Positions 29,742 through 34,531 of a DNA stretch of 64,000 bases are shown one piece after another (positions within the stretch are counted from its first letter, which is position 1; each line of letters starts with the position of its first letter). The stretch is from NCBI GenBank assembly GCA_002709295.1, contig PAQL01000003.1, forward strand, positions 18,894-82,893, in the 5' to 3' direction. The DNA is from Phycisphaerae bacterium. GTDB taxonomy: Bacteria > Planctomycetota > Phycisphaerae > Phycisphaerales > SM1A02. The translations under genes were made by a program, and so were the position numbers. The notes beneath the pieces are model-generated. The model was not told the origin of the DNA, made no database searches, and saw only the letters and a program-made list of their open reading frames with translations.

Positions 29742-31322
29742 TCAGTTGGTCACCGGCACGTTGGTGACCCCGATGGTCTGGTCGCCGATCATGATCGCAA
29801 CGATGGTCTTGCCCACCGGGATGCTGTAGATCACGTCCAGCTGATCACGGCCGGCCGAAGAGAGCAGAGGCAGGTCCTCGACGCTGGGGACGCCGTCGCG
29901 GGGATCGAACTTGATGTTCAGAAGGTTGTCGGCGGCCTTTTCGTGCAGCCATCCGACCGGTTCGTAGGCGCTTCCGTCTTCGGTCACCAGCACCAGTGGG
30001 TTCTGGGCGCCGCCCGCGGAACGCTTGTCGCCCCAGATGTCGATCGGGCTCTTGCCGCGGCTGACGTTGACCTTGACGATCCTCGTGTCGGGCTGTTCGT
30101 AGAACCGGGTCACGCGAAGGCTCGAACTCACCGATCCGCTGTCGCGGCTGGGGACGTCGTCTCCGTAGGCGAAGCTGATGTAGTTCTTCTCGGCCTCGAT
30201 GCCGCTGGGGAGGTTGTTGCGGTTGAGGGTCACGCCGAGCCGGCTCTCCAGCTTGAGTTCGCTGGCGGGGATGCTCTTGGCGGCGGCGTCGAAGGCCACT
30301 CGGGTGGTGCCGCTTTCGCCGAGATCGGCGAGGTCGGTGCTGGCCTCGGCCAGAGGGACCCGGAGGCTCTTGTACATCAGGTACTTCGGAGCCTGGTTGT
30401 TCAGATCCGCGGCGGGGAATGCCAGCAGGATCCTGACCTTCTGTTCGCCCGGAGGATTGGTGGCATAGGCGGTGAGCCCGTCGAACAGGTAGTTGCGTCC
30501 GCCTTCGAGCCATCCCGAGGGGAAGGCGACGGCGGGCTTGCTTCCATTGCCGATGAGGTAGGTCTGGGCGGAACTCAGAACGAAGTTCGACCCCTTGTGG
30601 AAGCCGCCTCTCTCGACGTCGATCGGGACGATGTACGCCTCTTCACCGGCTCCGACGCCATCGAAGGCGCCGTAGTAAGGGGTGCCGACCCTGAAGTCGG
30701 AGGGCGCGGCGCTCAGTTCGATCTTGCCGCCCTCCGCGGTGTCCCTGTGGAGTCCCCAGGCCTGTCGCGAGAGAATGGGGTGGCTGGTGGCGAGGGAGCC
30801 CTTGTTGAGCAGGGGTCGGAAGGCCCCGGTCCCGAGCATGTCGTAGAACTCCTCGGTCAGGGTCACCGTGAAGTTGATCGCGTTTTTCTTCGCGGGCTGG
30901 GCGGCGTTGGCCTGGGTGCGGACGTATCCCTTGCCGAAATCGTTTCCCATGCCCACCGGCATCATGCCGATGCCGATGAGTCCGATGCCCGCGGTGAGGA
31001 TGCCGATCCCCGCACCGCAGAGCGAGCCACCCACGATGTCGACGATGTGGGGGAAGTTCTGCTTGTCGGGCACCAGGAAATTCGAAGCCAGCCGGAGGCA
31101 GAACAGGATGAAGCAGAAGAGCAGCAGGAGCGACACGCCCCAGGCCCACTCCTTCATCCCGGTCCCCAGCATCGCATGAGCCAGCGGTTCCCAGAACGCG
31201 AAGGCGAGGGCGCCCGCGACGACCACGCAGGTGAGGTGCACGACCCCGCTGAAGAAGCCTTCCTTGAAGCCGAACCAGTAGACGGCGAGAAGGAGGAAGA
31301 CGATGCTGGTGCCAAGGATCAT
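29742..31322 (-). CDS. CvpA-like membrane protein with large periplasmic domain
   Basis: A 526-residue protein. The first 130 residues contain four helices in a CvpA-like layout (VFLLLAVYWFGFKEGFFSGVVHLTCVVVAGALAFAFW; WGVSLLLLFCFILFCLRLASNFLV; IVDIVGGSLCGAGIGILTAGIGLIGIGMM). The remaining 390 residues look extracytoplasmic and beta-rich (SGWLEGGRNYLFDGLTAYATNPPGEQKVRILLAFP...) and match nothing I know. It is the last gene of the minus-strand run pilT, GspE-like, CvpA-like, 60 bases downstream of the GspE-like gene. Confidence 0.65.
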   Translation of the reverse strand: MILGTSIVFLLLAVYWFGFKEGFFSGVVHLTCVVVAGALAFAFWEPLAHAMLGTGMKEWAWGVSLLLLFCFILFCLRLASNFLVPDKQNFPHIVDIVGGSLCGAGIGILTAGIGLIGIGMMPVGMGNDFGKGYVRTQANAAQPAKKNAINFTVTLTEEFYDMLGTGAFRPLLNKGSLATSHPILSRQAWGLHRDTAEGGKIELSAAPSDFRVGTPYYGAFDGVGAGEEAYIVPIDVERGGFHKGSNFVLSSAQTYLIGNGSKPAVAFPSGWLEGGRNYLFDGLTAYATNPPGEQKVRILLAFPAADLNNQAPKYLMYKSLRVPLAEASTDLADLGESGTTRVAFDAAAKSIPASELKLESRLGVTLNRNNLPSGIEAEKNYISFAYGDDVPSRDSGSVSSSLRVTRFYEQPDTRIVKVNVSRGKSPIDIWGDKRSAGGAQNPLVLVTEDGSAYEPVGWLHEKAADNLLNIKFDPRDGVPSVEDLPLLSSAGRDQLDVIYSIPVGKTIVAIMIGDQTIGVTNVPVTN

Positions 31323-31382: not shown

Positions 31383-33086
31383 TCAGCCCGCGGCAGGGGT
31401 CGAGGTCGCGGTCGGGCGGCTGGTCTTCTCGGGACTCAGGACCCTGGCGACCTCCTCGAGGCTGGTCTCGCCGCGGGAGACCTTCCGGAGGGCGGCCTCC
31501 TGCATGAGCATCATGCCGAGGCTGCGACGGGCGTGGGTGTAGGCGCCCTTGAGATCGCCTCCGGAGAGCATCCTGCGTGAATCACGATCCACGGGCATGA
31601 CCTCGAAGACGCCGAGGGTCCCGAAGAAGCCGGTTCCACGGCAGAGGGGGCATTCCTCGATCTTGTTCTTCACCTGGACGCGACCGCTCTGGCGGTAGAG
31701 CTGGACGGAGGAGGGGTCCTTGATGCCCAGCTTCTTCGCCTGCTCCGCGCTCGGGGTGTACGGCACCCTGCATTCGGGACAGAGCTTCCGCATGGTCCGG
31801 CCGCAGATCACGCCGACCAGGGGCTTGGCGGCCTCCTTCATGTCCCCGACGGCTCGGAACCACTCCGTGATGGCTCCGGGGATGCCGTCCTTGGTCTGGA
31901 TGCCGACGTAGACGAGCGGGCCGTCGGTGCCCACGGCGGCGGCCTGGACGCCGGTGGCCGGATCCTGAAGGTCGCTCACCATGACGATGTCCGGGCCGCG
32001 GCGGATGATCGACCGCAGCTGCGTGGGGAAGTCGAGGTCGGGGTTGGAGGGGTCCCATTCGGAGTGGTCGACGCCCTCCACCGACCGCTGGACATCGCGT
32101 TCAAGGGTCTTGATGTTGCAGGTGTAGGCGTCGTGACGCTTGAGCAGCGTCGTGAGCATCGAGGTGAGTCCCTGGCCGGGGGCTGCGGCGACCAGGACGA
32201 TGCCCTTTCGCTGGGCCCCGTCCGCGGTCTGCTCGAGGATCTTCAGCTGCTCGGGTTCGAAGCCGAGTTCGTCGAACTCTCGCTCGAGCTGGGCATCGCG
32301 ATCGATGTCGATCCGAAGCATGATCCCCTGGGAACTCCCACTGGTGGTGAGGTCCAGCGTGTAGCTTCGGGCGTCGTCCTGGATCCTGAGTCCGCATCGG
32401 CCTCGCTGCTTCTTGCGACGTTCGTCGACGTCGAGGCCGGCGGCCTGCTTCAGGTAGTCGATGATGCTTGCCGCGAGCTCCTTGCCGAGGGGTTCCCTCT
32501 TGTAGCGGACGCCATCGACCATCTGGGCGACGCTGCCGCCCTTGGCGGTGACTGCGACCTCCATGCGGGTCGAACGGGCGGTGAGCCCGGGCAGGAGCAG
32601 ATCCTCCATGGCCAGATGGATCGGGCGTCGGGGGTCCTCCTCCTCGGGGACGGTCAGCTCGGTCCGGCTCGAGTCGAGCAGCACGGCGGAGGCGCTGCGC
32701 TGGGCGGCCTTCTGCTTCCTCGCCGCCATGCGGTCGCTCATGGCCGCGGCACCGAGCTGGAACTTCTGCGACTCGTTCTCGACGTTGTCGTTGCGGTACT
32801 TCCAGTACGCCAGGAGCGGGATCACGAGGATCGCGAGCATGGCGGGGAAGCCGGCGAGGAACAACGGGATGAAGAGGCCCGCGGCCAGCGCGAGGCATGC
32901 GGTCACGAGGAAGATGCTGTTCCACAACGCGACGTTGTGGTTGAAGTACCGCATGTCCTTCTCGATCGACGAGCTGATCACGCGCAGGTAGACCAGGAGA
33001 GGGATCGCGAACAGCACCGGCTTGATGAAGTCCACCAGGTTGAGCGCGGGGGCGTTGGCGGCAAGCAGGGCGACGGGGTCGTTCAT
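31383..33086 (-). CDS. Membrane-anchored GspE/PilB-like protein with degraded P-loop
   Basis: A 567-residue protein with about three N-terminal helices (LVDFIKPVLFAIPLLVYLRVI, NSIFLVTACLALAAGLFIPLFLAGFPAMLAILVIPLLAYW) and then a GspE/PilB ATPase fold. The fold is recognisable from LGFEPEQLKILEQ, SIIRRGPDIVMVSDLQDPATG at the Walker B/Asp-box position, and the zinc-type tetracysteine CPECRVPYT...CPLCRGTGFFG. The P-loop reads AAAPGQGLTS instead of GxTGSGKTT, lacking the lysine, and the Walker B glutamate (GEIRD) is SDLQD. ATP hydrolysis is therefore doubtful. It lies 46 bases after pilT. A membrane scaffold for a pilus or secretion machine is inferred. Confidence 0.8.
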   Translation of the reverse strand: MNDPVALLAANAPALNLVDFIKPVLFAIPLLVYLRVISSSIEKDMRYFNHNVALWNSIFLVTACLALAAGLFIPLFLAGFPAMLAILVIPLLAYWKYRNDNVENESQKFQLGAAAMSDRMAARKQKAAQRSASAVLLDSSRTELTVPEEEDPRRPIHLAMEDLLLPGLTARSTRMEVAVTAKGGSVAQMVDGVRYKREPLGKELAASIIDYLKQAAGLDVDERRKKQRGRCGLRIQDDARSYTLDLTTSGSSQGIMLRIDIDRDAQLEREFDELGFEPEQLKILEQTADGAQRKGIVLVAAAPGQGLTSMLTTLLKRHDAYTCNIKTLERDVQRSVEGVDHSEWDPSNPDLDFPTQLRSIIRRGPDIVMVSDLQDPATGVQAAAVGTDGPLVYVGIQTKDGIPGAITEWFRAVGDMKEAAKPLVGVICGRTMRKLCPECRVPYTPSAEQAKKLGIKDPSSVQLYRQSGRVQVKNKIEECPLCRGTGFFGTLGVFEVMPVDRDSRRMLSGGDLKGAYTHARRSLGMMLMQEAALRKVSRGETSLEEVARVLSPEKTSRPTATSTPAAG

Positions 33087-33132: not shown

Positions 33133-34266
33133 TCAGGAGATGCCCTTGAGGCGCATCTTCAGTTCCTCGGGCTTCGGAGTCGCACCGAGGGCGACGTCCT
33201 GGTGGATGTACTCCTCCTCCACCAGTCGGACGAGGGAGGTGGTGAAGTCCACCATGCCCTCGTCGTGGCTCTGATTGATGATCTGCAGCAGCTCGCCCTC
33301 GCGGGCCTCGAGGATGTACTTCTGCACCGCGGGGGTGTTGAGAAGGATCTCGAGGGCGGGGATCCGACCGATGTTCTTGTGCAGGGTCGGCAGGAGCTTC
33401 TGGTAGATGATCGCCCGGAGGTTGTAGGCGAGGAGCTTGCGAAGCTGCTCCCGCTCGTTCTCGGGGAAGAGGTCGTAGATGCGCCCGAAGGTCTGCCAGG
33501 CGCTCGAGGCGTGGATGGTTCCGAAGACGAGGTGGCCGGTCTCCGCGGCGCGGATGGCGGCCTCGAAGGTCTCGTAGTCACGCATCTCGCCGACCAGGAC
33601 CACATCCGGATTCTCCCGGACGAGGGCTCGCAGGGCATCGTTGAAGTTGAGGCAGTCGATCCCGATCTCTCGCTGGTTGATCGTCGCCTTGTCGTCGTTG
33701 AAGATGTACTCGATCGGGTCCTCGATGGTCACGATGTGGACGCGCTTGCGCTCGTTCACGTACTGGAGCATCGAGGCGATCGAGGTCGACTTGCCCGATC
33801 CGGTCACGCCGGAGAAGAGGATCAGTCCCTGGGCGGACATCGAGACGTCGCCGAGGATCTCGGGCAGGTAGAGGTCCTCGAACTTCATGATGTCCGAGGT
33901 GATCAGTCGTGCGGCGACCGCAGGCTTGCCGCGGGCCATGAACATGTTCACACGGAAGCGGCGGCGTTCGTCGAAGTCGTAGGCGAAGTCGATGGAGCCT
34001 CGCTGGCGGAAGTACTCGAACTGGTTGGGGTCCAGCACGTCCTTGGCCACGCGGAAGAGCAGGTCGACCGTGCAGGGCTCGATCTGCATGCCCTTGAGCG
34101 AGCCCCGGACGCGGAGCCGCGGCGACTGGCCGGCCTTGACGATGAGGTCGCTGGCCTCGAATTTGATGCAGGTGTCGAGCCAGCTTTCCCACGCCTTCAG
34201 GCCTTCGCCTTCGGGAATCGTGATCTTGTGGTCGATCGGGGCCGCGATCAGGGTGTCGGAGTGCAC
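33133..34266 (-). CDS. PilT-like type IV pilus retraction ATPase
   Basis: A 377-residue hexameric ATPase that depolymerises type IV pili. Walker A is GVTGSGKSTS, Walker B is PDVVLVGEMRD, and the His box is TGHLVFGTIHAS; LLAYNLRAIIYQKLLP is at the place of the AIRNLIRE motif. The start is GTG 34266, six bases after GAGGG; the track start at 34503 includes non-coding residues. It is intact, unlike the neighbouring GspE-like protein. No pilin gene lies nearby. Confidence 0.9.
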   Translation of the reverse strand: MHSDTLIAAPIDHKITIPEGEGLKAWESWLDTCIKFEASDLIVKAGQSPRLRVRGSLKGMQIEPCTVDLLFRVAKDVLDPNQFEYFRQRGSIDFAYDFDERRRFRVNMFMARGKPAVAARLITSDIMKFEDLYLPEILGDVSMSAQGLILFSGVTGSGKSTSIASMLQYVNERKRVHIVTIEDPIEYIFNDDKATINQREIGIDCLNFNDALRALVRENPDVVLVGEMRDYETFEAAIRAAETGHLVFGTIHASSAWQTFGRIYDLFPENEREQLRKLLAYNLRAIIYQKLLPTLHKNIGRIPALEILLNTPAVQKYILEAREGELLQIINQSHDEGMVDFTTSLVRLVEEEYIHQDVALGATPKPEELKMRLKGIS

Positions 34267-34502
34267 GGGAATCCCTCGGTCGTTCTCCGCGGTCGACGGG
34301 TGTCGTGACGGAGGCTTTTCTGGGGTCCTGGCGGGTGCCGGGACCGGTTGCAGATGGGGCGTCGCCGGCGTCCGGCCGGGAATCGACGTAAGCAGAGCAG
34401 AGTACCAGACAGGCCCGTCCTCGGGGGCTGGAAAGCGCCTCGGACCGCCCCTTCGCAGGCCCGTCATCCTCGGTTCCAGATTCGTGAAGGCACTTCCCCG
34501 CA

Positions 34503-34531
34503 TTGACAGCGGGACGGGGGTCTGACATCAT
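34503..34531 (+). promoter_or_regulatory. guaB promoter placing transcription start at the ATG
   Basis: A perfect TTGACA (34503-34508), a 17-base spacer and CATCAT (34526-34531) end six bases before ATG 34538. No Shine-Dalgarno is present. The expected transcription start coincides with the A of the start codon. Confidence 0.7.

Follow-up and report, generated by a model that had tools for sequence, protein, structure and literature searches.

ATPases of the PilB/GspE family (T2SSE, PF00437) share their core fold, zinc tetracysteine and C-terminal domain with the protein described here, which differs from them in lacking the catalytic residues and in having three transmembrane helices in place of their soluble N-terminal region. 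A likeness is also offered by CpaE/TadZ of Tad pili, an atypical P-loop protein that acts as an assembly hub of a pilus machine, but CpaE/TadZ has the ParA/MinD fold rather than that of PilB/GspE and is not an integral membrane protein. In Vibrio cholerae, PilU-driven retraction persists when PilT carries the Walker-A substitution K136A, presumed to leave it ATPase-dead, and is abolished when PilT is lost (PMC6821130, PMC6762196). What it has in common with our case is that an active motor needs another member of the motor family that is presumed to be ATPase-dead; PilT(K136A), however, is a soluble PilT mutated in the laboratory, whereas the dead state in Phycisphaerae is natural, class-wide and found in a membrane-anchored, PilB-like protein. 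No report of a natural pseudo-ATPase of the PilB/GspE/PilT family, or of a pilT/pseudo-E/cvpA operon, was found in open-access titles and abstracts, which is weak evidence of absence as the terms used for pseudo-enzymes vary.

The window, by which we mean the whole stretch of 64,000 nucleotides analysed from a Phycisphaerae bacterium, contains a gene with the following features:

31383 to 33086, minus strand: PilB/GspE-fold membrane-anchored pseudo-ATPase, ATG start, 567 aa, the ORF matching these coordinates exactly
32784 to 33026, minus strand: three predicted transmembrane helices, aa 21-101 (hydrophobicity and AlphaFold2)
32160 to 32183, minus strand: degenerate P-loop APGQGLTS, aa 302-309, with Leu307 for Lys and with G306 and T308 kept
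31962 to 31976, minus strand: degenerate Walker B/catalytic Glu region SDLQD, aa 371-375, standing where GEIRD is expected
31641 to 31781, minus strand: tetracysteine zinc-type motif CPEC...CPLC, aa 436-482 (Cys 436, 439, 479 and 482), kept

A first-pass annotation had proposed a GspE/PilB homologue preceded by three helices, and this is borne out by a Pfam T2SSE match of 110.7 bits (cut-off 24.9) and by an AlphaFold2 model built from 51 family members (mean pLDDT 91.6), in which hydrophobic helices at residues 21-47, 52-72 and 76-101 precede the ATPase core. Solved GspE/PilB structures match the protein by sequence with E about 1e-32; by structure, the core agrees with PilB 5tsh/5tsg at a TM of about 0.84 by target length, the Foldseek hit of the model to 5tsh_C having E 1.5e-32 and TMt 0.84. 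With a T2SSE domain and a PilB-like core, the protein belongs to the fold family of the PilB/GspE traffic ATPases. Its scores of 163.3 bits against the NCBIfam GspE equivalog and 144.6 bits against the PilB equivalog are far under the curated cut-offs (630.25 and 675.65, respectively). The Pfam search returned no N-terminal domain, and the three transmembrane helices occupy that region; the N1/MshEN-type soluble domain that docks to GspL/PilM is accordingly missing.

The altered P-loop, the SDLQD in place of GEIRD and the zinc tetracysteine, all pointed out in the first-pass annotation, are read directly in the ORF. The P-loop codons on the minus strand are GCC CCC GGC CAG GGA CTC ACC TCG and, since Leu is encoded by CTC at the Lys position, a one-base error cannot have produced it from a Lys codon. 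For the remainder of the active site, residue roles were taken from Geobacter PilB (PMC5424180), whose numbering was checked before it was mapped onto the pseudo-ATPase. Both arginine fingers are gone (PilB R271 and R286 correspond to D245 and D260 in the window protein), ASP-box Glu357 has become Q333, HIS-box H413/H420 have become P390/Q397, and the catalytic Glu (PilB E395) is D372. The protein thus lacks the Walker A Lys, the catalytic Glu, ASP-box E357, two arginine fingers and the HIS-box histidine that mark the enzymes. Across the class, the HIS-box histidines are lost in nearly all members and the catalytic Glu, Glu357 and both arginine fingers in most, while P-loop Gly306, Thr/Ser308, the first ASP-box Glu (E329) and the tetracysteine motif are kept, the last in 53 of 57 members of the order, 22 of 22 from other orders and 78 of 80 from named genomes. 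Class-specific new constants, such as P147, Q280, H318, Y393 and D415, have also appeared. An assignment of E329 as the Mg-coordinating ASP-box Glu was rejected, as the PilB mapping places E357 later and E357 is lost.

Judging from these residues, the kept G306 and T308 may still allow nucleotide binding. Together with E329 and the Asp often found at the catalytic Glu position, G306 and T/S308 also speak for an NTPase that has diverged and taken on an unusual catalytic chemistry but is still active. No Lys or Arg has been conserved as a substitute, however, the Lys position being mostly Leu but also Arg, Val, Ile and others, and the arginine fingers and HIS box vary freely, and we regard such an enzyme as very improbable.

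Comparison with the other PilB/GspE proteins of the same genome, also proposed in the first-pass annotation, found GPTGSGK and GEIRD intact in eight of eight, leaving the pseudo-ATPase alone without the Lys. With these eight active paralogues encoded, and the overall PilB fold kept in the pseudo-ATPase, it is conceivable that the latter is a subunit of mixed hexamers, in which it modulates or curbs an active PilB/GspE of its own cell; the first-pass annotation had suggested modelling such a hexamer. That proposal is weakened by the finding that the residues acting across subunits (arginine fingers R271/R286, T411 and H413) were lost along with the P-loop. Because the arginine fingers are lost, the pseudo-ATPase could hardly complete a neighbour's active site. 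It moreover has its own membrane anchor in place of the usual soluble N-terminal region, and its gene is linked to pilT and cvpA rather than to pilB-type genes. Mixed hexamers therefore appear improbable.

A search of 60 relatives recovered full-length members in nearly all, and the loss of the P-loop Lys proved constant among the aligned members of the class. None of the 57 aligned members of the order has the Lys, which is mostly replaced by Leu or Arg; it is likewise missing in 22 of 22 members from other orders of Phycisphaerae and in 79 of the 79 members that could be read from named genomes, a set of 80 (one of them a fragment without the P-loop) that partly overlaps the first set and comes from genomes titled mostly Phycisphaerae or Phycisphaerales; the scan of these genomes used a closer set of 16 members, as an alignment of all 51 gave no pattern. 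Of 198 genomes sampled from the class, 197 have a match at E 1e-70 or better, and of the best matches listed most are full length, although the weakest may include a few PilB/GspE of the ordinary kind. Close pairs of the gene have dN/dS of 0.06-0.26. A sequencing error or a decaying pseudogene, which intact P-loops in related species would have indicated, is refuted by the loss of the Lys in every aligned class member, the full-length frames, these dN/dS values and the near-universal presence, and its probability is practically nil. Intact orthologues were met only in other lineages of the phylum, as described below. Catalytic residues lost throughout a clade under purifying selection are what is expected of a conserved pseudo-enzyme, and we conclude from the sequences that the gene very probably encodes a retained pseudo-ATPase; the class-wide loss of the Lys, the further catalytic residues gone, the purifying selection and the conserved operon all lend strong support to this reading, which had first been drawn from the window protein alone. 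One member of the order, genome G060, has an operon-type pilT but no match to the pseudo-ATPase; an unrelated 580-aa protein follows that pilT (L227:4135-7032), an apparent loss within the order.

In two groups from other Planctomycetota lineages (f49 and f56; L127-L141), the best-matching protein is an orthologue of full length and bears the membrane signature of the pseudo-ATPase. Like the window gene, these orthologues have a cvpA-like gene downstream and, in part, pilT upstream; they differ in that the active site is intact in 15 of 15, with GPTG(A/H)GK(S/T), GEIRD and the HIS box, so that they are presumably active motors. The membrane-region residues W/D44/W55/P74/Y94/R98/N99/V102 are common to the pseudo-ATPase and the active orthologues, and only P74 among them also occurs in PilB paralogues. 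A tree computed without the motif columns sets all membrane-anchored proteins apart from the PilB/GspE paralogues; in it, the dead Phycisphaerae proteins form a single clade (support 100) with a long stem branch. Orthologues in two further groups, f90 and f99 (L143 and L142), are dead too, and an AU test of whether the class and f90/f99 lost the Lys once or separately gave a p-AU of 0.361, which leaves room for either history. Given this tree, the active state would be ancestral, and a membrane-tethered active motor appears to have lost catalysis in the stem of Phycisphaerae, after which the inactive form was kept. As the intact f49/f56 orthologues look ancestral, they are no proof of decay in the Phycisphaerae copy.

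The gene is flanked by two others on the same strand:

33133 to 34503, minus strand: intact PilT-family ATPase, 46 bp upstream of the pseudo-ATPase gene
29742 to 31322, minus strand: CvpA-domain membrane protein, 60 bp downstream of the pseudo-ATPase gene

The intact, co-oriented PilT of the first-pass annotation is confirmed at this position, with GVTGSGKS and GEMRD, and its TIGR01420 score of 397 bits (cut-off 319) assigns it to the PilT/PilU model. The catalytic residues of the operon PilTs, Lys238 and Glu306 among them, are invariant across 29 species. The ORF in the window is some 60-80 residues longer at the N-terminus than most operon PilTs (about 370-400 residues), and its true start is probably internal. 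The downstream protein matches PF02674 (Colicin V production) at 36.2 bits (cut-off 29.3) and is modelled (pLDDT 78) with four membrane helices, forming the CvpA domain, followed by about 390 aa of beta-rich C-terminal sequence; a fold search of the model against solved structures gave nothing significant and left the beta-rich region without a relative. This C-terminal region (window 29742-30950, minus strand) is fast-evolving. In group f4 (L041, L063) the CvpA-like protein is shorter and ends in an extra hydrophobic helix.

Throughout the order, the arrangement pilT > pseudo-E > cvpA-like is found at practically every locus with flanks. An automatic rule placed pilT directly upstream at 54 of 55 loci and cvpA directly downstream at 53 of 55, the exceptions (L021, L049, L051) being long-ORF artefacts with normal gene order; over all loci, the median intergenic gaps are 31 and 48 bp. 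For other orders of the class, the same rule found the cvpA-like gene downstream at 24 of 24 loci and pilT upstream at 13, the remaining 11 including L110, where pilT lies one gene further upstream. The full layout also surrounds active orthologues: cvpA lies downstream of 11 of 12 active f49 genes and pilT upstream of 3 of 12, and both genes are in place at 3 of 3 f56 loci. In the dead groups f90 and f99, pilT is directly upstream as well. A non-adjacent pilT may sit elsewhere in the genome, as in G458 and G379, while family f11 has kept pseudo-E and CvpA and has only lower-scoring PilTs of other types, the operon-type PilT seemingly missing. Directly upstream of the pseudo-ATPase gene in f11 lies a gene for a small, similar-looking membrane protein (L107:5546-6064 and L118:5357-5872). 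In family f8, the operon-type PilT is followed by a PilB/GspE-type ATPase with an FHA-like domain (L110:1857-3608, L228:3503-5212), which in L110 has an intact P-loop and sits between pilT and the pseudo-ATPase; it was considered as an active twin of pseudo-E and rejected, given its FHA-looking N-terminus and lack of N-terminal membrane helices. Separately, contigs C9 and C13 of genome G000 (L066, L067) carry two paralogous clusters of identical order, each with two active PilB/GspE genes flanking a PilT-like gene.

No neighbour is as constant as the CvpA-like gene (24/24 in other orders, 11/12 in f49, 3/3 in f56), and pilT has been lost or moved in several lineages; this would suit a pseudo-ATPase that works mainly with the CvpA-like protein, the two making up a membrane complex with a structural or sensory task in the envelope, to which the PilT linkage is historical or secondary. 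Against this, pilT immediately precedes the E gene at virtually every locus of the order as well as in f56, f90 and f99, and the catalytic sites of the operon PilTs are intact; we consider a complex of this kind unlikely, if far from negligible.

We favor a model in which the pseudo-ATPase is the non-hydrolysing descendant of a membrane-tethered, catalytically competent motor of PilB/GspE type and serves PilT as a platform. It would sit permanently, as a ring or platform, at the cytoplasmic side of the inner membrane, where its own three helices would hold it in place of a GspL/PilM-type adaptor, and the ATP-driven PilT hexamer would dock on it; platform and CvpA-like protein would then pass the movements of PilT to a part in the membrane or periplasm, be it a pilus, a pseudopilus or some other part of the envelope. 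By analogy, the support that PilT(K136A) still gives to PilU makes such a role feasible in the PilB/GspE/PilT superfamily. We give the explanation as a whole, from the tethered motor to the platform for PilT and the CvpA-like protein, a probability of roughly 0.55, and hold the specific role as a platform for PilT only tentatively, at somewhat short of even odds. Its main weakness is that the pilT linkage fails in several lineages where the cvpA-like gene stays. More doubtful is the wider notion that pilT, the membrane-anchored E gene and its cvpA-like neighbour form the operon of a machine of the planctomycete envelope, present at the level of the phylum Planctomycetota and neither type IV pilus nor type II secretion system, whose 'extension' motor has in Phycisphaerae become a non-hydrolysing platform driven by PilT.

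The loss of catalysis, the selection on the gene, the membrane location and the adjoining working PilT suggest that an engine of pilus or secretion type has been turned by evolution into a structural part. The finding also draws attention to an operon not described before, almost universal in Phycisphaerae, a class whose envelope biology is poorly understood. Active membrane-anchored orthologues elsewhere in the phylum and dead ones in Phycisphaerae offer a before-and-after comparison, and it can now be tested whether, as the Vibrio PilT/PilU work suggests, a motor ring has a structural role separable from its role as an ATPase.
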